9,657 nt of DNA, taken from positions 1 to 9,657 of the forward strand of contig PWUB01000169.1 of assembly GCA_003563755.1 (NCBI GenBank). Direction: 5' to 3'. The position numbers were made by a program, and so were the translations under genes. The stretch comes from Clostridia bacterium. Its GTDB lineage: Bacteria; Bacillota_E; SLMV01; PUMD01. This document shows, piece by piece, positions 296 to 9,657 of this stretch. A model generated the notes under the pieces. It saw only the letters and a list, made by a program, of their open reading frames with translations. It did not search any database and was not told where the DNA came from. How positions within the stretch are numbered: the first letter of the stretch is position 1; each line of letters opens with the position of its first letter.

Positions 296-360
296 AAAAA
301 TGCCAAAGACCCCGGCGGCCGGTTCCGTCCTCAGATGGGGAACCTGCCGCCCGGGTCTTT
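296..360 (-). terminator. Riboswitch-controlled intrinsic terminator (attenuator) ahead of ilvN
   Basis: On the minus strand AAAGACCC, GGCGGC and GGTTCC (360-338) pair with GGAACC, GCCGCC and GGGTCTTT (326-305). This gives about 20 pairs interrupted by two single mismatches, with a 12-base loop. After GGCA comes a run of five T (300-296). The 5' arm uses the ACCC and TTCC segments that the upstream aptamer needs for its P3 and P1 helices, so terminator and folded aptamer are mutually exclusive. The expected logic is that ligand binding prevents the terminator and turns ilvN on. The U-run is displaced by four bases from the stem, which is slightly unusual. The inverted repeat could also work on the plus strand (it ends TCTTTTAT), but no plus-strand gene ends there. 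Confidence 0.8.
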
Positions 361-459
361 TATACCCACGGTGTAATCACATGACTCCGTGAAATTGTAC
401 CGCTCGGACCAGCCAACCGGGAAAGATCCCCGGTGCGGAACCCTAGGTACACTTCCCTC
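338..459 (-). ncRNA. ykkC-family riboswitch aptamer (probably the ppGpp-sensing subtype)
   Basis: The minus strand carries the hallmark ykkC-yxkD conserved blocks in order: CTAGGGTTCCG (446-436), GGCTGGTCCGAGCGG (414-400), ACACCGTG, and GGGTATAAAAGACCCGGG (367-350). Helices fit: GGGAA (457-453) with TTCCC (342-338) as P1; GTACC (450-446) with GGTAC (401-397); an internal CCGGG/CCCGG hairpin; CACGG with CCGTG; and GGGT/ACCC closing the ATAAAAG loop (P3). Known ykkC subtypes sense guanidine, ppGpp, PRPP or nucleoside diphosphates. The ppGpp subtype is the one associated with branched-chain amino-acid genes, so placement directly before ilvN points to ppGpp. Family membership is seen directly; the ligand is inference from context, and discriminating nucleotides were not checked against an alignment. 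Confidence 0.88.
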
Positions 460-479
460 ATGACCTCTCGATTTCAAGC

Positions 480-510
480 ATTATAACTGCACCATGCCGA
501 CGTTTGTCAA
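480..510 (-). promoter_or_regulatory. Sigma-A type promoter of the ilvN leader
   Basis: On the minus strand a perfect TTGACA (510-505) and a perfect TATAAT (485-480) are separated by 19 bases. The spacer is longer than the usual 17, but both hexamers are consensus. Transcription would start near 473, about 15 bases before the aptamer's P1 strand, which is the right place for the riboswitch transcript. The promoter lies upstream of pheA's GTG start and diverges from it. Confidence 0.75.
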
Positions 511-2112: not shown

Positions 2113-2520
2113 TCACTGTTTTCGCTCTTCAACCAGTTCTAGGAGCACCCCTTTGGCGCTCTTGGGATGTATGAAGGCGACTCGAGCGTTCCCGACGCCG
2201 CGTCTTGCTTCTTCATCGATGAGCTGTACGCCAGATTCCTTCAACTGCTCCAGCATTCCATCAATGTCGTCGACGTTGAAAGCCAGGTGATGAATACCCT
2301 CGCCTCTTCTTTCTATGAATCTGCCCACGGTGCTCTCCGGGTCGGTGGGCTCGAGGAGTTCGATCGCCGTATCGCCCAGAGCCAGCATGGCCACTCGCAG
2401 CTGCAGTTCCGGCAGCTCCTCCCGCTTCTTCACCTCAAGGCCCAGAACATCCCGATACAGGGTCAACGCATCGGCAATGTCACGGACGGCAATACCTATG
2501 TGCTGTGCTCTTCTTATCAT
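2113..2520 (-). CDS. mce: Methylmalonyl-CoA epimerase
   Basis: It interconverts (2R)- and (2S)-methylmalonyl-CoA, linking propionyl-CoA carboxylase or transcarboxylase product to the mutase. The 135-residue protein is a two-module glyoxalase/VOC fold of the normal family length. RAQHIGIAVRDIADALTLYRDVLGLE is the first beta-alpha-beta module, with metal ligand His7; IELLEP (53-58) follows, with a second ligand region; EGIHHLAFNVDDI (74-86) holds the conserved His77-His78; and GVLLELVE (124-131) gives Glu128, the usual last metal ligand. The ATG at 2520 is preceded by TGGAGGGAT at good spacing. It lies 33 bases after meaB and is the last gene of the cluster. VOC proteins can be confused with lactoylglutathione lyase, but the HHLAF motif and adjacency to meaB and a mutase make the epimerase call secure. 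Confidence 0.95.
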   Translation of the reverse strand: MIRRAQHIGIAVRDIADALTLYRDVLGLEVKKREELPELQLRVAMLALGDTAIELLEPTDPESTVGRFIERRGEGIHHLAFNVDDIDGMLEQLKESGVQLIDEEARRGVGNARVAFIHPKSAKGVLLELVEERKQ

Positions 2521-2544
2521 GGACTATCCCTCCACAGAAGAATT

Positions 2545-2562
2545 GGTGTGTTCTCACACACC
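2545..2562 (-). other. Hairpin with GNRA-type loop spanning the meaB stop codon
   Basis: On the minus strand GGTGTGT, loop GAGA, ACACACC form a perfect 7-bp stem with a GNRA-class tetraloop. The meaB stop TGA is inside it. No U-run follows, so it is not a classical terminator; it could affect translation coupling to mce or mRNA stability. Structure is seen; role is unknown. Confidence 0.5.
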
Positions 2563-3480
2563 CTCATTTCTGAGCGCCTTCCATATCTCATCTGCCACCG
2601 CATGAGGGCTGTCAGAGGGAACCGGCTCATCGCGCTGGCTCAGGATCTCCTGGACATACCTGTCCAACCTGTCTCGGAGGATCGCGCGAACCTCCTCATG
2701 ATGGCGCCGGCATCTCCTCTCGTGCAGGAGTCCCGCGCCTCGAGAGATCCTGTGGTGCTCGTCCAGCGTCGACAGCAGTGTCTCGAGCCCAGTTTCCTTT
2801 TCTGCACTGGTCATAAGAATCGGGGGTTGCCATACCTGATCGTCAAAGTGCGCAAAGCGCAAATTTCTCTCGAGCATCACCTTCACGCGCTCCGCACCGT
2901 GAAGGTCCGATTTGTTCACCACGAGGACATCGCCTATTTCGGTGATACCGGCCTTGATCGCCTGAATGTCATCGCCGAGGCCCGGAACGAAAATGACCAC
3001 CACCGTATCTGCCATTTTCCTCACATCGATTTCCGATTGCCCGACGCCGACGGTCTCAAGGAAGATGTAGTCCTTGCCGAAGGCCTCGATGGCTGTGATG
3101 GCGTCATGAACCGCTCGGGCCAGGCCTCCGAGACTGCCGCGAGTCGCCATGCTCCGGATGAACACCCCGGGATCAGTAGCTAAGTCCTGCATCCTCGTCC
3201 GGTCTCCCAGCAGCGCACCTCCCGTGAGAGAGCTCGTCGGATCAACCGCCAGCACTCCTACCGTCTTGTGCTTCGCTCGCAGCCGTTTGATGAGTCGGTC
3301 GGCGAGAGTGCTCTTGCCCGCTCCGGGCGGGCCCGTGATCCCGATTATGTGGGAGTGTCCCGTGACAGGGCGGAGCTCTGCCAGAATATCGACGGCCGTC
3401 TCATCTCCATCTTCGATCAAACTGATGAGACGGGCCAGTGCCAACACCTTGCCGTCCTTGACTCCTGATGCCAGGTTCAT
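2554..3480 (-). CDS. meaB: Methylmalonyl-CoA mutase-associated GTPase (MeaB/ArgK family)
   Basis: A SIMIBI-class P-loop GTPase that gates delivery of adenosylcobalamin to B12-dependent acyl-CoA mutases and protects them from inactivation. In the 308-residue form: Walker A GPPGAGKS (50-57), AVDPTS (79-84), DRTRM (93-97, switch region), ETVGVGQSE (142-150, G3/switch region) and NKSD (189-192, G4 guanine specificity). The C-terminal ~60 residues form the helical dimerisation arm, rich in charged residues. The ATG at 3480 is preferred because MNLASGVKDGKVLALARLIS aligns with the usual family N-terminus. A TTG at 3495 gives five extra residues and has a GAGAGG a few bases upstream, so it remains possible. 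The gene sits between mcmA (156-base gap) and mce (33-base gap), the classic MCM neighbourhood, and probably serves both mutases of the cluster. Older databases call the family ArgK / LAO transport ATPase, a misnomer. Confidence 0.96.
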   Translation of the reverse strand: MNLASGVKDGKVLALARLISLIEDGDETAVDILAELRPVTGHSHIIGITGPPGAGKSTLADRLIKRLRAKHKTVGVLAVDPTSSLTGGALLGDRTRMQDLATDPGVFIRSMATRGSLGGLARAVHDAITAIEAFGKDYIFLETVGVGQSEIDVRKMADTVVVIFVPGLGDDIQAIKAGITEIGDVLVVNKSDLHGAERVKVMLERNLRFAHFDDQVWQPPILMTSAEKETGLETLLSTLDEHHRISRGAGLLHERRCRRHHEEVRAILRDRLDRYVQEILSQRDEPVPSDSPHAVADEIWKALRNEGV

Positions 3481-3636
3481 ACTGTTAGTTCCCAACCGCC
3501 TCTCACCGGTACACGCTTTGCTGGATAAAGCCGGGTCCCGCGCCTTCCTCTGGCCGCATCCCCGATCGCATGATCAAGATCATCCCACCCAGACTTCTAC
3601 GACCATTGCGGCGTTTTCCGATGTTTGATCCGGGAG

Positions 3637-5316
3637 TCAGAGCACCGATGGAGCCTTGTACTCCCCGAGAACCTCACGCAGCGCACCGCACATTTCACCG
3701 AGGGTGGCTTCAGCCCGGACCGCATCGATAAGGTGAGGCATGAGATTGTCAGTTTTTGCCGCCGCCTCCTGAATCGCGCGCAGTGATCGATCCACCTGGC
3801 CCTCATCTCGTTGCATCCTGAGTCGCCCGAGCCTTTCTCTCTGATTCTCTTCGATCCTCGGGTTCAAGCGCAAAATGCTCCAGTCAGGTTCTTCTTCGGT
3901 TTGATAGCGGTTCACTCCAACTACCACGCGCTCCTCCGCTTCCACGGCCTGTTGATAGCGATAGGCGCTTTCCTGGATTTCACGCTGCATGTATCCAGCC
4001 TCGATGGCCGCGGGAGCTCCACCCAGGGTATCGATTTCATCTATGAGTTCCATGGCTCCTTCTTCGATCTCGTTGGTCTTATGTTCCACGCAGTACGAAC
4101 CAGCGAGGGGATCGATGGTGTCGGCAACCCCGCTTTCGTGAGCGATGAGCTGCTGCGTCCTCAGGGCGATGCGGACGGATTCTTCTGTCGGGAGGGCCAG
4201 GGCCTCGTCGCGGGAATTAGTGTGCAATGATTGCGTGCCACCCAGGACCGCTGCCAGGGCTTGAAGCGCAACGCGGATTATGTTGTTATCCGGTTGCTGG
4301 GCGGTGAGGGTGCAACCTGCGGTCTGGGTATGGAAGCGAAGGCGACAAGACTTCTCGTTTTCCGCACCCAGTCGTTCCTTCATGATCCGGGCCCAGAGTC
4401 TCCGGGCAGCTCGAAACTTGGCGACTTCCTCCACAATGTCCGAGTGGGCAGCAAAGAAGAAGGACAACCTGGGTGCGAAAGCATCGACTTGCATGCCGGC
4501 CTCGATCGCTCGCTCCACGTATGCAATGGCGTTAGCCAGCGTAAAAGCCACTTCCTGAATCGCGGTGCATCCCGCTTCTCTCATGTGGTAACCACTGACA
4601 CTGATGGTATTCCAGTTGGGAACCTCCCGGGCGCAGAACTCGATGACATCCGTTACCAGTCGCATACTGGGTTCGGGTGGGAATATGTACGTTCCTCGAG
4701 CCACATATTCCTTCAGGATGTCATTCTGTACGGTACCGGAAAGCTCACTGGGAGCCAGGCCCTGTCTCTCACCTACCACAATGTACATGGCCAGCAAGAT
4801 GGCCGCGGGAGCATTGATGGTCATGGACGTGCTGACCTCATCCAGAGGAATGCCGTCGAACAGGAGCTGCACATCCCGGACCGAATCCACGGCGACTCCC
4901 ACCCTACCGACCTCGCCTATCGCCATGTCGTGGTCCGAATCGTAACCGATTTGTGTGGGGAGATCGAAGGCCACGCTCAACCCGGTCTGGCCTTGTTCAA
5001 GGAGATATCGATACCTCAGGTTCGATTCTTCGGCAGACCCGAACCCTGCATACTGCCGCATTGTCCAGAGGCGTCCTCGATACATCGTGGGTTGAGCGCC
5101 TCTCGTAAACGGGAATGCCCCTGGGTATCCCAGGTCGCGATTGTAGTCGATGTCTCTAATGTCCAGGGGCGTATACATGCGCCCGATGGGTTCATCGGAG
5201 ACCGTCTTGAACTCGTCCCTTCGCTCCGGGAACCGAGTCAGGGCCTTGGTGACCCGGTCCTTTTCCCATCGTCTCAGCTGCTCTTGGATTTCCAGCAATG
5301 CCTCGATGTCGAACAT
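3637..5316 (-). CDS. mcmA: Methylmalonyl-CoA mutase large (substrate-binding) subunit
   Basis: It catalyses the adenosylcobalamin-dependent interconversion of (R)-methylmalonyl-CoA and succinyl-CoA. The 559-residue protein is the TIM-barrel, acyl-CoA-binding half only; the B12-binding domain is a separate polypeptide, as in many archaea and Firmicutes. The substrate-selecting residues match the Propionibacterium mutase even in numbering: RQYAGF gives Tyr89, KEYVARGTY gives Arg207 (binds the substrate carboxylate) and SGYHMREAG gives His244. Arg82, Ser114 and Gln197 are also present. [14 protein letters not shown] and [10 protein letters not shown] are conserved barrel segments. The N-terminal helix ([13 protein letters not shown]) is the usual partner-contacting segment. 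The ATG at 5316 has only a weak upstream GGTAGG but matches the family start. The 179-base gap before it is long for an operon and holds a weak promoter-like pair (TTGCTA 5418-5413, TAAAAC 5396-5391). No own B12 subunit is adjacent; it may share the one at 6782-7177. Confidence 0.95.
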
Positions 5317-5495
5317 GAAGACCTACCCGCCTTCCTCTCCACACGGCTCCCGAAAACGCCTCGTCGTCGGCCTGCTCCAGTCTCGATCACGTTTTACCGC
5401 TGTCATCCGGCATAGCAAGAACCCATATGTCCTGTGTGATCTAGAATGGATGCAACAGGTAGGAGCCTCCCCGCGACGCCTGTGGAGAACGGTCA

Positions 5496-6635
5496 TCACT
5501 TAAGCAGTGATGCCGATATCACCATGCGCATAACTTCCGATGTTCCCTCGTAAATCTCCGTGATCTTCGCGTCACGCAGCAACCGCTCAACGATATAGTC
5601 CTTCATGTAGCCGTAGCCGCCGTGGATCTGGATCGCCTTTGAAGTCACATCCATGGCCGTCCGGGAGGCAAAGAGCTTGGCCATGGCGATTTCGGAAGTG
5701 GCCCGCTCTCCCTTGCCGTGCAGGTAAGCGGCCCTGTTCACCAGCAACCGCGAAGCATCGATCTCCGTTTTCATGTCAGCCAGCATCCACTGGATGGCCT
5801 GGAGCCTGGCGATCGGGCGGCCAAACTGTTCCCGCTCTTTTGAATAAGCCACGGACAAGTCGAGGGCCCTCTGTGCGATACCGACAGCCTGACAGCCGAT
5901 GCCTATGCGCCCTCCGTCCAGAGTGGCCATGGCGATCTTGAAACCCTCTCCTTCACCGCCCAGTCTGTTCTCTTCGGGAACCTCGCAGTCCTCCAGAACC
6001 ACGTCCGCGGTCTGTGATGCGCGGATACCGAGCTTGTCTTCCGGTTCCCCGAAGCTGACGCCCGGCATATCCTTGTCGACCACAAATGCCGTCAAACCCC
6101 TGGCCCCTTGCTCACGATCGCTCGATGCGAAGACGATGTAGCAGTCGGCGACACCAGCGTTGGTGATGAAACACTTGCGGCCATTGAGTACGTAGCGATC
6201 GCCCTCTTTCTCCGCCGTCGTCTCAATAGCGGCGGCGTCAGAGCCAGCCTGCGGCTCGGTCAGTGCAAATGCGCCCAGGCGCTCGCCGGAGATGCAATCA
6301 GGCAGGATACGCTGTTTTTGCTCGTCAGTCCCGAACTTCCAGATGGCGTCCATGAACAGGGAGTTTAGTACTTCAAAGATGACGCCGGTGGCAGCGCACG
6401 CCCGGGACACCTCTTCCACACAGATGGCATAGCTAACCCAATCGGCTCCCGCGGCGCCGATCTCCTCGGGCAGCGTCATGCCCAGGTAGCCGTACCGCGC
6501 CAGTGCTTGGATGTTATCGTGGGGAAACTCGCCCGACTCATCGTAAGCCTTGGCCCGGGGTTCCAACTCCTTTTCGGCGAGATCCCTGATCGCATCCCTG
6601 ATCGTCAGCTGAACATCGTTCAAGTCGAAATTCAT
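5496..6635 (-). CDS. Short-chain acyl-CoA dehydrogenase (butyryl-/isobutyryl-CoA type)
   Basis: An FAD-dependent enzyme that introduces the alpha,beta double bond into a short acyl-CoA and passes electrons to an electron-transfer flavoprotein. The 379-residue protein has the full family layout: helical N-terminal domain (1-120), FAD-contact segment AFALTEPQAGSDA (122-134), FITNAG (156-161), beta domain to about 230, and a C-terminal helical domain with REQFGRPI (268-275), QIHGGYGY (336-343) and IYEGTSEVMR (361-370). Glu363 in that last segment is the catalytic base at the position used by short/medium-chain enzymes rather than the isovaleryl- or long-chain position. The ATG at 6635 is chosen over 6650 because GAGGAG lies 7 bases ahead. 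Its place between the two mutases suggests oxidation of butyryl-CoA or isobutyryl-CoA, linking to the isomerase encoded upstream; sequence alone cannot separate straight from branched substrates. No etfAB is in the window. Confidence 0.93.
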   Translation of the reverse strand: MNFDLNDVQLTIRDAIRDLAEKELEPRAKAYDESGEFPHDNIQALARYGYLGMTLPEEIGAAGADWVSYAICVEEVSRACAATGVIFEVLNSLFMDAIWKFGTDEQKQRILPDCISGERLGAFALTEPQAGSDAAAIETTAEKEGDRYVLNGRKCFITNAGVADCYIVFASSDREQGARGLTAFVVDKDMPGVSFGEPEDKLGIRASQTADVVLEDCEVPEENRLGGEGEGFKIAMATLDGGRIGIGCQAVGIAQRALDLSVAYSKEREQFGRPIARLQAIQWMLADMKTEIDASRLLVNRAAYLHGKGERATSEIAMAKLFASRTAMDVTSKAIQIHGGYGYMKDYIVERLLRDAKITEIYEGTSEVMRMVISASLLK

Positions 6636-6686
6636 CTCATCACTCCTCATGGAGAATATACGGGCGGGTCATGCATAATCGCCGTC

Positions 6687-6725
6687 GATCAGAGGCCGAG
6701 GGTTTCGCCTCTGGTCACCGTGACC
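6687..6725 (+). repeat. Overlapping inverted repeats between icmB and the dehydrogenase gene
   Basis: In the 146-base gap between icmB and the acyl-CoA dehydrogenase gene, GATCAGAGGC (6687-6696) and GCCTCTGGTC (6707-6716) form a 10-bp stem (one G-T) with a 10-base loop. A perfect palindrome GGTCAC-C-GTGACC (6713-6725) overlaps its right arm. No T-run is present on either side. This could be an operator or an mRNA-stability element; the two folds compete. Confidence 0.4.
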
Positions 6726-6781
6726 GGGTATCACTCGCCGGCAGGCACACCGACCCCAACGACATGGTCCGCATGACCACG

Positions 6782-7177
6782 TCAGTGCCCGACGTTTTGT
6801 CTGATGAACTCCACGATCCTCTCAGTGGACGTACCGGGACCAAAGACCTCAGCCACGCCCTTGCTTTTCAGTTCCTCCGCGTCTTCAACCGGAATTATGC
6901 CTCCCACGACCACGAGGACATCATCCATACCTTGATCAAGCAGAAGATCGATCACCTTCGGCACGAGTGTCAGATGCGCACCGGACAGGATACTGAGCCC
7001 CACAACCTTCACATCTTCCTGCAGCGACGAGTGCGCTATCTGTTCAGGCGTCTGGTGCAGGCCCGTATAGACAACCTCGAACCCGGCATCGCGCAGTGCC
7101 CGCACAACGACTTTAGCTCCCCGATCATGACCGTCAAGTCCCGGCTTTGCCACCAGTACCCTGATCTTCTTATCCAC
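6782..7177 (-). CDS. icmB: B12-binding small subunit of acyl-CoA mutase (isobutyryl-/methylmalonyl-CoA mutase)
   Basis: A free-standing cobalamin-binding subunit that holds adenosylcobalamin and pairs with a large mutase subunit. The 131-residue protein is a complete Rossmann-like B12 domain: [10 protein letters not shown] has the DxHxxG motif (Asp15, His17, Gly20), with His17 the lower cobalt ligand in base-off/His-on binding. SIL (62-64) is the SxL motif, GGIIP (92-96) the GG motif, and VFGPGT (111-116) the closing signature. Length is normal for the separate small subunit. The start is GTG at 7177, with GAGGAGG about 10 bases ahead; a nearby ATG at 7181 is out of frame and stops after three codons. 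It lies 23 bases after the icmA stop, so the two are surely co-transcribed and probably one enzyme. It is the only B12-binding subunit in the window, so it may also serve the mcmA product. It resembles the MCM C-terminal domain equally, so the symbol follows from adjacency. Confidence 0.9.
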
Positions 7178-7200
7178 GCATTATCGACCTCCTCATGGAA

Positions 7201-8820
7201 CTAGTACACAGGCTTTTCCCTGTACTCACCAAACGCATCCCGGAACACGTCGATTATCTCACCCTCGCTGCAGTAAGCGTTCACCGCCTCGATCACCGCC
7301 GGCATCACGTTGGCGCCGCTGGTAGTCGCATCCGCCAGACGCTTGAGACAGGCCCGTACCTGCCTCTCGTCACGTTCCTTCTTCACCCTCTCCAGGTTGC
7401 TGATCTGCCACTGTTCGAGTTCGGTCTGAGTCCTCAACACCTCGATCTCAGGTGGTTTTTCCGTCACATGCTTGTTGACCCCGACGATAGCACGATCACC
7501 CGTCTCGATTTCCTGGTGGTAGCGATAGGATGCGTCGGCGATCTCCTGCTGGAAGAATCCGTGGTCAATCGCCGGTACAACCCCTCCCAATTCCTCTATC
7601 TGGTGGAAATAGTCCCTTGCCTCTCGCTCCAGTCGATTGGTCATCGCCTCAATGCAATACGAACCGCCGAGCGGATCCACCGTGTTTGCCACCCCCGATT
7701 CTTCGGCCAGTATCTGTTGGGTACGCAGAGCGATCGTGACCGCCTCTTCGGTCGGAACCGCCCACGCCTCATCAAACGAATTCGTGTGCAGAGACTGTGT
7801 TCCCCCGAGTACGGCCGCTAACGCCTGCACGGCCGTTCGCACCACGTTGTTATAGGGTTGCTGGGCAGTAAGCGAGCACCCGGCCGTCTGGGTATGGAAT
7901 CTCAGCAACCACGACCTGGGGTTCTTGGCTCCAAATTCCTCCTTCATCGCCCGGGCCCAGATGCGCCTGGCCGCCCGGTATTTGGCGATCTCCTCCAGGA
8001 AATCGTTGTGGGCATTGAAGAAAAACGAGAGCCTGGGTGCGAACGCATCAACGTCCAGTCCGGACTTGATTCCGCGCCGTACGTACTCAAACCCGTTGGC
8101 GAGGGTGAACGCCAGCTCCTGAGCGGCGGTCGAACCGGCCTCACGGATGTGGTATCCGGATATGCTGATAGTGTTCCACTGCGGCACCTGTTCACTGCCG
8201 AACTCGAATGTATCAGTGACGAGACGCAGCGACGGCTCGGGCGGGAAGATGAACGACTTCTGGGCTATGTACTCTTTCAGAATATCATTCTGGATAGTTC
8301 CCGATATTCGTTTCCAGTCGGCTCCCTGCTTCTTGGCCACCGCCAGATACATGGCCCACAGCACAACGGCGGGACCGTTGATGGTCATCGACGTTGTGAT
8401 TTCGTCCAACGGAATCTGATCGAACAGTACCTCCATATCCGCGAGCGTATCGATGGCGACCCCGATCCGGCCCACTTCGCCCTGAGCACGTTCGTGATCG
8501 GAGTCATAACCCATGATCGTCGGCATATCGAAGGCCACCGATACCCCCGTCTGTCCCTGCTCCAGGAGGTACCGGTATCGCTGATTTGACTCGCGGGCCG
8601 TACCGAACCCCGCAAATTGCCGCATGGTCCACAGGCGCCCCCGATACATGGTGGAGTGAACGCCCCGCACAAACGGATACTCCCCCGGTTCACCGAGGTC
8701 GCGCTCGTAATCAAGAGCCTTCACATCCTCAGGCCCGTAAACTCGCTTCACCTCCGCCCCGGAAATGGTGGTGCACTTCTTCCTGTGCTCCCGGGGCGTG
8801 TTCCCCTCTTTCTGAGCCAC
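7201..8820 (-). CDS. icmA: Isobutyryl-CoA mutase-type large subunit of a B12-dependent acyl-CoA mutase
   Basis: A paralogue of the mcmA product with a changed active site. In the 539-residue form, RQFAGF gives Phe69 and KEYIAQKSF gives Gln187, where methylmalonyl-CoA mutase has Tyr89 and Arg207; His224 (SGYHIREAG) equals His244. Phe plus Gln is the published signature of isobutyryl-CoA mutase, which reversibly converts isobutyryl-CoA to butyryl-CoA. An Ala is kept in VSVAFDMPT where 2-hydroxyisobutyryl-CoA mutase has Asp, arguing against that enzyme. The product has no B12 domain; the small subunit is encoded next. The start is uncertain: GTG at 8820 has GGGGGG nine bases ahead, TTG at 8826 has no room for a site, and a TTG at 8877 would add 19 residues without a ribosome site. 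The N-terminus is about 20 residues shorter than in relatives (the W-containing helix seen in mcmA is missing). Likely the first recognisable gene of the cluster. Confidence 0.9.
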
Positions 8821-9657
8821 TGTGACCAACCCCCCAGCAATCAAGATTCTCAGCAGCACTGGTCCCGATATCCTCAAGTATTGAGACCGTCAGCGCAGTC
8901 CTCGCCTATCCTCGATCATCACCACAATCGCTACCGACACCGCGAGCAACTGACCCACGTGCGACCCCATTAGCCTACCGTGCGGGTCCAAGGCAGGACG
9001 GTGATCACCACTCCCGAAGGTAACTGCAGACAGATGCAAACAGGTTGGAGCTTCCTCCTGCCTTTGTCAGGTCTATTCAATGCTACGCCATCTAACTCCT
9101 GCAAACTACATCGAGAAACCACATCAACAACGGCCGTAAGCATTGGCCGTGAGTCCGGCAACGTTTATAGTGCACCGCGATTTCCACGATGAGCGTGTCT
9201 ACGTATGACGTGTAAATGAGAAAGAGAACGATGTGAAGCGGCGATGAGTTAACTGCGAGTCCAGCCAGTCCAGCATATCCATGATGCCGTGCCTGTCTTG
9301 ATGAAAGAGCGGTGGCCTGCTGAGGCTGGAGCTGTCAATTCCAGAATGCATCTGCCGGGGAGAGTAGGGGTGGTGCGGTTGGTGCTGGGTCGCCTCGTGA
9401 GTACCCACGGTGCGTTCCTCAACCATGTCATCGTAACCCCCCACGGGGTTCAGGAGACTGGGGTGAGTGAAGACTCTGCCCGGTGCGGTGGCGAGAACCC
9501 ACACAATCTTCAACTCCTTCGCCGGCATTCTGCCCGTCATCGGTTTTCACCTGGTAAGTGGTCCGGCCCATGTACAGTCCCGGATACTCCAGGATGCCCC
9601 TGGGCTGGCTCCTCCTGTCGCCGACCATGCTCCGTTCAGGCCAGCACATACATACGA
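8821..9657. other. Upstream region of the mutase cluster, no recognisable gene
   Basis: About 840 bases contain several overlapping open frames but no family similarity I can name. Minus-strand frames at 9199-9540 (113 residues) and 9428-9649 (73 residues), and a plus-strand frame from ATG 9346 running off the right edge, overlap one another and lack good ribosome sites. A GTG at 9520 in the 9199-9540 frame has GGAG about nine bases ahead and is the best candidate start. Small symmetric elements are a perfect palindrome GGTGATCACC (9000-9009) and a hairpin ACGGCC/GGCCGT with a 9-base loop (9130-9150). No B12 riboswitch signature and no convincing promoter for the mutase genes was found. Confidence 0.4.

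Follow-up and report, generated by a model that had tools for sequence, protein, structure and literature searches.

The ppGpp riboswitch, which makes up subtype 2a of the ykkC class, reportedly goes back to a founding study by Sherlock, Sudarsan and Breaker in 2018. Published comparators of this subtype include the T. mathranii G96A structure (PMC6031431) and the Cba ppGpp riboswitch (PMC10687018). According to the accessible parts of PMC6031431, PMC5912903, PMC7266159 and PMC10687018, from which the ppGpp riboswitch consensus used here was taken second-hand, the ppGpp riboswitch and the PRPP riboswitch (subtype 2b) are both ON switches, the former lying before branched-chain, glutamate-synthase and natA genes and the latter before purine genes. 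In the accessible part of PMC6031431, residue 49 is given as A in guanidine-I riboswitches and as a pyrimidine in subtypes 2a and 2b, while G96 is more than 97% conserved in PRPP aptamers and is absent or replaced by A, C or U in ppGpp aptamers. The partner of C75 is given there as G96 in the PRPP aptamer or as the guanine of ppGpp. Subtype 2b is described as a Firmicutes class in the accessible text of PMC5912903, which places 127 of the 257 published 2b RNAs behind a guanine aptamer, as guanine-PRPP tandems. The available part of PMC11109978 adds that in Firmicutes a ppGpp riboswitch sometimes controls ilvB.

ykkC-class RNAs upstream of branched-chain genes are already known, and the locus described here is an additional member. 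The stretch of DNA analysed (the window) is an entire contig of 9657 bases, which ends in codon 83 of an ilvN gene, with ilvB and ilvC beyond view. The leader of this ilvN is in all likelihood a ppGpp riboswitch of subtype 2a that controls transcription by antitermination, and it probably heads an operon that begins ilvN-ilvC.

Layout of the ilvN leader

Read from the sequence, the minus strand from 510 to 248 carries a promoter, a ykkC aptamer, an overlapping terminator hairpin, a Shine-Dalgarno sequence and the TTG start of ilvN, in that order. The promoter is of sigma-70 type (480-510, minus), with TTGACA at 510-505 and TATAAT at 485-480 separated by a 19-nt spacer, and the RNA is estimated to start near 472. 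A consensus promoter scan of the window returned no promoter at the leader, because spacers of 16-18 nt only were allowed. The aptamer (338-457, minus) is enclosed by the five-pair helix P0, formed from its ends (457-453/342-338), and contains P1 (450-446/401-397) and the two pairings of P3 (371-369/349-347 and 367-365/355-353). The Shine-Dalgarno sequence GGAGG lies at about 265-261 and the TTG start at 250, so that this last element occupies 2-265 on the minus strand; the frame 250-2 stops at the contig end after 83 codons, and the 83-residue fragment matches TIGR00119, the acetolactate synthase small subunit, with 72.9 bits against a cut-off of 56.9.

The intrinsic terminator hairpin (305-360, minus) has arms at 360-339 and 326-305 and comprises 18 pairs by our own count, with a computed energy of -41.1 kcal/mol, and the four bases GGCA separate it from a run of five U (UUUUU, 296-300). 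A terminator scan picked out a small hairpin directly before the U-run (316-302), and the full 18-pair hairpin is larger. In the 5' arm of the terminator (360-339) lie the 3' strands of P3 (355-347) and the greater part of the 3' strand of P0 (342-338), and the aptamer fold and the terminator are therefore mutually exclusive. The preliminary description had placed a promoter, an aptamer, a mutually exclusive terminator, a Shine-Dalgarno sequence and a start codon in this leader, and all of them are present, the coordinates given being exact.

The conserved blocks of the ykkC scaffold are all found in the window (CUAGGGUUCCG, CUGGUCCRAG, ACACCG and the AAAA loop), and of 200 dinucleotide-shuffled versions of the leader, 198 fold less well than the leader itself (z = -3.15). 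In an alignment of 28 relatives including the window, 96.8% of the cells for the 20 named pairs of P0, P1, P1a and P3 are paired, a figure biased towards the window because the structure was drawn on it. Two-sided changes occur in four of the five pairs of P0 and likewise in four of the five of P1. Over all 20 pairs they fill 40 cells, as compared with 12.2 on average after shuffling of the columns and no more than 15 after sliding of the partner strand. P1a and P3 are nearly invariant, and the covariation support therefore comes from P0 and P1. Both the P1/P3 pairing and the conserved blocks noticed in the preliminary description are thus present, with the pairs shared among relatives and P1 covarying.

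Apart from the leader, the window holds a divergent prephenate dehydratase gene (665-1528, plus), whose named relatives are Chloroflexota (Anaerolineales, 75%; Caldilinea and its kin, about 70%). The neighbouring genes are Bacillota-like, namely a mutase (75% to a Clostridia MAG) and an acyl-CoA dehydrogenase (mostly Bacillota at about 60%, with one Acetobacteraceae MAG at 69%), and the Chloroflexota-like gene beside them may reflect either transfer or an unplaced lineage. These belong to a cluster on the minus strand (2113-8877) comprising a methylmalonyl-CoA epimerase, a MeaB-type GTPase, two separate large subunits of acyl-CoA mutases (559 and 558 aa), a small subunit that binds B12 and an acyl-CoA dehydrogenase, all named by reading the sequence except one mutase and the dehydrogenase, for which a protein search was used. 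The presence of two mutases suggests a branched-chain or hydroxyacyl-CoA route.

Class and subtype of the aptamer

A cmscan of both strands against 4227 Rfam families, at E up to 1, matched a single family, RF00442 (Guanidine-I), at 457-346 on the minus strand, and no ykkC subtype 2a or 2b family. The match spans the full model (1-107) with 57.0 bits and an E-value of 2.7e-8 for the whole window. Assignment to the ykkC class, as first proposed, is borne out by this match, though its score lies below the gathering score of 63.

Relatives were collected by a subtype-2 pattern scan of one genome per species in GTDB 220, which yielded at least 119 stretches and in which a pyrimidine at position 49 was required. 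Among the stretches listed together with the window there were 122 pattern matches, 57 of which, including the window, have an upstream TAGGG[TC]TCC block no more than 75 bases away. The remaining 65 were not carried forward at that stage, being mostly chance matches; some of them are real RNAs with other spacing (L003, L027, L032, L054 and L114) and re-entered the later site tally. Copies with identical flanks were removed (L157 and L164 among those fetched). The structure of P3 divides the 57 into two groups of 31 and 26 among the matches listed: the first has the P3 5' strand CCG-U-GGG with NGCGG-NAGGTTCC (28 aligned), and the second CCG-NN-GGG with CGGGTAGGTTTC (23 aligned).

NCBIfam searches with 23 frames downstream of first-group RNAs other than that of the window gave ilvE (10), ilvN (2), a branched-chain binding protein (2), a paaK-like gene (2) and one each of ilvB, leuA, a larA-like gene, an ABC ATPase and a GNAT acetyltransferase, with two frames matching no family; six frames of the second group gave purB (2), purK (1) and no family (3). 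A purine-riboswitch aptamer lies directly upstream of both 2b-type loci that were scanned with Rfam for it (L003 and L009). On the strength of these downstream genes and purine aptamers, the first group was taken as 2a and the second as 2b. Three candidates first counted as 2a by pattern were withdrawn: L003, which scores as 2b and has the purine aptamer upstream, L032, which shares the P3 motif of L003, and L016, of unclear class (39.2 bits with the 2a profile described below and 57.8 with the 2b profile), which was entered in neither profile.

Removal of L003 and L032 from 81 pattern sites left 79 2a-type sites listed, including the window. Their first recognised gene is ilvE at 29, ilvN at 8, livK-like at 7, glutamate synthase and paaK-like at 5 each, ilvB, an NSS transporter and a 396-aa permease at 4 each, leuA at 3, and ilvD, larA-like and an amidohydrolase at one each, with seven lacking an assignment; glutamate synthase, the NSS transporter, the permease and the amidohydrolase were named by reading the protein sequences and not by family search. 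None of the first genes at these 79 sites matched the PurB, PurK or PurL references.

Several further observations were made in this set. At six sites (L015, L018, L024, L041, L084 and L086, from Sporomusa, a Selenomonadales MAG and two Bacillota MAGs) a 2a-type RNA stands directly before a paaK-like CoA ligase or a larA-like racemase, with ilvN further on in L024 and L084; paaK-like and larA-like genes are not named among the 2a contexts in the available parts of the published accounts. Multiple 2a-type RNAs occur in the genomes G006 (leuA, ilvN and glutamate synthase), G004 (livK-like and NSS) and G147 (permease and livK-like), which may possess small ppGpp regulons. A 2b-type RNA, L014, precedes a 1267-aa frame on a contig labelled Chloroflexi; since 2b is described as a Firmicutes class in the source cited above, this is read as a binning error or a transfer. 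No 2a RNA was found in the 201 genomes searched from the phylum of that MAG.

Two profiles without base pairs were built, R1 from 27 2a-type RNAs with the window excluded and R2 from 23 2b-type RNAs. The window scores 77.8 bits with R1 and 56.4 with R2, a preference of about 21 bits for 2a. Among 27 other loci scored, all 22 of 2a type prefer R1, with margins from 6.6 (L129) to 39 (L060), and all four of 2b type (five sites) prefer R2. Five loci were kept out of both profiles to serve as tests (L060 and L097 of 2a type; L001, L010 and L080 of 2b type). The result is a classification and not an independent benchmark, because several of the loci scored almost duplicate sequences used for training (L131 has the sequence of L051).

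The markers taken from the accessible part of PMC6031431 can be placed in the window by alignment. The G48 and C49 equivalents lie at 402-403 (minus), with the pyrimidine C at position 49 (402), and the C75-A76-C77 equivalents at 371-373 (minus), with C75 at 373. The P3 5' strand is CCG-U-GGG, with one base between the pairings as in the 2a group, and the 3' tail is CGGCAGGTTCC, not CGGGTAGGTTTC. Of the 2b features, the CCG-NN-GGG strand, the tail CGGGUAGGUUUC and a purine gene are absent, and a G near position 96 is present. Together with the gene context, these features make it very probable that the leader senses ppGpp. The ppGpp subtype proposed at the outset is accordingly the one favoured by the pyrimidine at 49, C75-A76-C77, P0, the profile margin and the branched-chain gene downstream.

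RF00442 being the only family matched, a guanidine-I riboswitch (subtype 1) would be the literal reading of the Rfam result. This we regard as extremely improbable, for the score falls short of the curated cut-off, and the same family also matches six of nine 2a-type loci (44.7-61.1 bits; the other three gave no match) and the two 2b-type loci scanned with Rfam (63.1 and 68.6 bits). Against it, too, are the C in place of A at position 49, the presence of P0 and of the conserved 3' tail, and the ilvN gene downstream.

Guanosines in the P3 bulge

The 3' strand of P3 in the window is CCC-GG-GCGG, with a two-base bulge GG at 351-352 (minus), in which 351 is the likely equivalent of position 96, the alignment of the bulge being uncertain. 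At the 79 2a-type sites listed, the base before GCGG is A in 61, T in 9 and G in 9, in a tally that prints a CA bulge as A; the T class consists of T (5), GT (2), TT (1) and AT (1), and the G class of G (4), TG (3), AG (1) and GG (1). A GG bulge was found neither at the 78 other 2a-type sites listed nor in the 154 and 250 genomes searched by class, sets that partly overlap earlier searches. Of the eight other G-bulged 2a-type sites, three precede glutamate synthase (L140, L143 and L144) and two ilvB (L139 and L141), while an amidohydrolase (L138), ilvE (L013) and an NSS-type transporter (L142) follow one site each.

When 250 genomes from the class to which G006, a Negativicutes MAG, belongs were searched for NG bulges, seven sites came up. 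Four of them stand before a strong glutamate-synthase match (74-79%), namely L186, L187, L188, which is L140 and already counted, and L192, which lacks the usual upstream blocks; L189 and L190 stand before a weak glutamate-synthase match (22-24% identity), and L191 before a gene without assignment. No NG bulge was found in 154 genomes of another class. An earlier, looser pattern for G-bulged 2a RNAs had matched in 6 of 113 genomes without the AAAA loop, in a chance-like manner, and was tightened.

The GG bulge, set against the strong conservation of G96 in PRPP aptamers, is what speaks for a PRPP riboswitch (subtype 2b) with a guanosine at or beside position 96. Such a riboswitch is very unlikely here: both the 3' tail and the 5' strand of P3 follow 2a, the 2b profile lies 21 bits lower, the gene downstream is ilvN, and both the eight other G-bulged sites and the NG sites, six of seven of which precede a strong or weak glutamate-synthase match, are found before the genes named above. 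A G in the P3 bulge is unlikely on its own to mean PRPP, because it goes with 2a-type genes, and it is probably without effect on the ligand. With eight other 2a-type sites carrying a G, mostly before 2a-type genes, the published rule of no G at 96 in ppGpp aptamers looks not to be strict.

The leader might instead still be transcribed but have lost its switching, either because the GG bulge pairs with C75 and so occupies the pocket, or because the terminator is leaky. The GG bulge is confined to the window among the 79 2a-type sites listed, and the U-run is offset from the hairpin by GGCA, both of which would fit such a loss. The helices and the remaining contact residues are all preserved, however, and the hairpin energy is the second lowest of the 79 sites, compared over stretches of unequal length, with five U in the ten-base tail, equal to the median of the 79; we hold a loss of switching to be very improbable. 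There is also a slight chance that 2a-scaffold RNAs with a P3-bulge G, which is part of GG in the window and occurs as NG or a single G at other sites, chiefly upstream of ilv and glutamate-synthase genes, form a distinct specificity group. In such RNAs the G would compete with the guanine of ppGpp for C75, so that the switch would have a higher threshold for ppGpp, sense both ppGpp and PRPP, or prefer a related alarmone.

Switching, operon context and comparison with known systems

For the preferred reading, a ppGpp riboswitch of subtype 2a, a switching mechanism can be proposed. Without ligand, the 18-pair terminator hairpin would take up the 3' strands of P3 and P0, and transcription would stop near 296. 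Upon amino-acid shortage ppGpp would rise and bind at the P0-P3 junction with its guanine paired to C75, and the bound ppGpp would hold P0 and P3 and block the hairpin, allowing RNA polymerase to read into ilvN. The Cba ppGpp riboswitch is described as working in this way in the accessible part of PMC10687018, with ppGpp stabilising the end helix against a terminator. The ligand, the ON direction and an ilvC past the contig end are what we infer, by analogy, from the published family.

Folds of leader prefixes, taken every 4 nt from 110 to 190 nt (21 folds), predict P0 paired at 138-150 nt, neither fold at 154 nt and the terminator from 158 nt. The checked P3 pairs appear in none of the 21; this absence may either count against the reading or arise because secondary-structure prediction ignores the tertiary contacts by which such an aptamer is held together. 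At each of the 79 2a-type sites listed, the terminator region is predicted to take part in a hairpin of 10 pairs or more, a count made without a shuffle control. The attenuator layout with antitermination, as first suggested, thus gains support from the overlap of the terminator arm with the aptamer strands. Points against the ppGpp reading are the GG bulge with respect to the rule in the accessible part of PMC6031431, the five-base U-run offset by four bases, the absence of P3 from the prefix folds, the 19-nt promoter spacer and the position of ilvB and ilvC outside the view.

The preliminary description called the ilvN stand-alone, for which a contig that ends inside the gene gives no support, and regarded a leader on ilvN, rather than ilvB, as notable. 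The latter view is not supported either, as ilvN is the first recognised gene at seven of the 78 other 2a-type sites listed (L054, L092, L106 and L173-L176, the last four of which look like close kin), and ilvC follows in all seven, L106 continuing to ilvB. Because of this, and because the leader layout of L054 is like that of the window, ilvC is expected next to the window's ilvN. No description of ilvN-first ppGpp riboswitches was found in the literature searched, a search that did not extend to the founding paper.

At L139, L173-L176, L092 and L106, a 2a riboswitch is followed by a T-box before ilvB or ilvN-ilvC, L174-L176 being assigned by motif or likeness. The T-box between the 2a RNA and ilvN in L173 scores 52.4 bits (E = 1e-8), well below the cut-off of 93, that before ilvB in L139 scores 92.2 bits, also sub-threshold, and those of L092 and L106 are T-box-like motifs read by eye. 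Such leaders may respond to two inputs, ppGpp and uncharged tRNA. The T-box leaders on ilvN-ilvC (L173, L092 and L106) share with the window the upstream 2a RNA, while no T-box was found in the window by cmscan at E up to 1.

Among single leaders, L054, from an uncultured Firmicutes MAG, resembles the window in having a 2a RNA with ilvN as the first recognised gene, in L054 about 146 nt downstream and followed by ilvC. It differs in its CA bulge, and in the window the gene is truncated by the contig end. The PRPP riboswitch has the fold and a G near position 96 in common with the window and differs in the P3 5' strand, the tail, the purine genes and the frequent guanine aptamer (the 127 of 257 noted above for the available text of PMC5912903). 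The comparison suggests that 2a can be separated from 2b more safely by the 3' tail and by how long the 5' strand of P3 is, both in agreement with the downstream genes, than by position 96 alone. The filter of PMC10687018 may, by its own account in the part available, exclude some ppGpp riboswitches, and filters that drop every RNA with G at 96 would lose 2a-type leaders like the one described here. The NDP riboswitch (2c) and the orphan subtype 2d, with NUDIX/HAD hydrolase genes and EamA/TauE transporter genes, respectively, are set apart from the window by the gene alone, which is ilvN.

Compared with the ppGpp riboswitch itself, the window differs by the GG in the P3 bulge and by having ilvN first, and its ligand assignment is a prediction. 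It resembles that riboswitch in the P0 scaffold, the pyrimidine at 49, C75-A76-C77, a terminator formed from the 3' strand of the aptamer and a branched-chain gene downstream. The locus adds one more case, in an uncultured bacterium of a Bacillota-like lineage not yet placed, in which the stringent response probably controls acetolactate synthase directly through an RNA.
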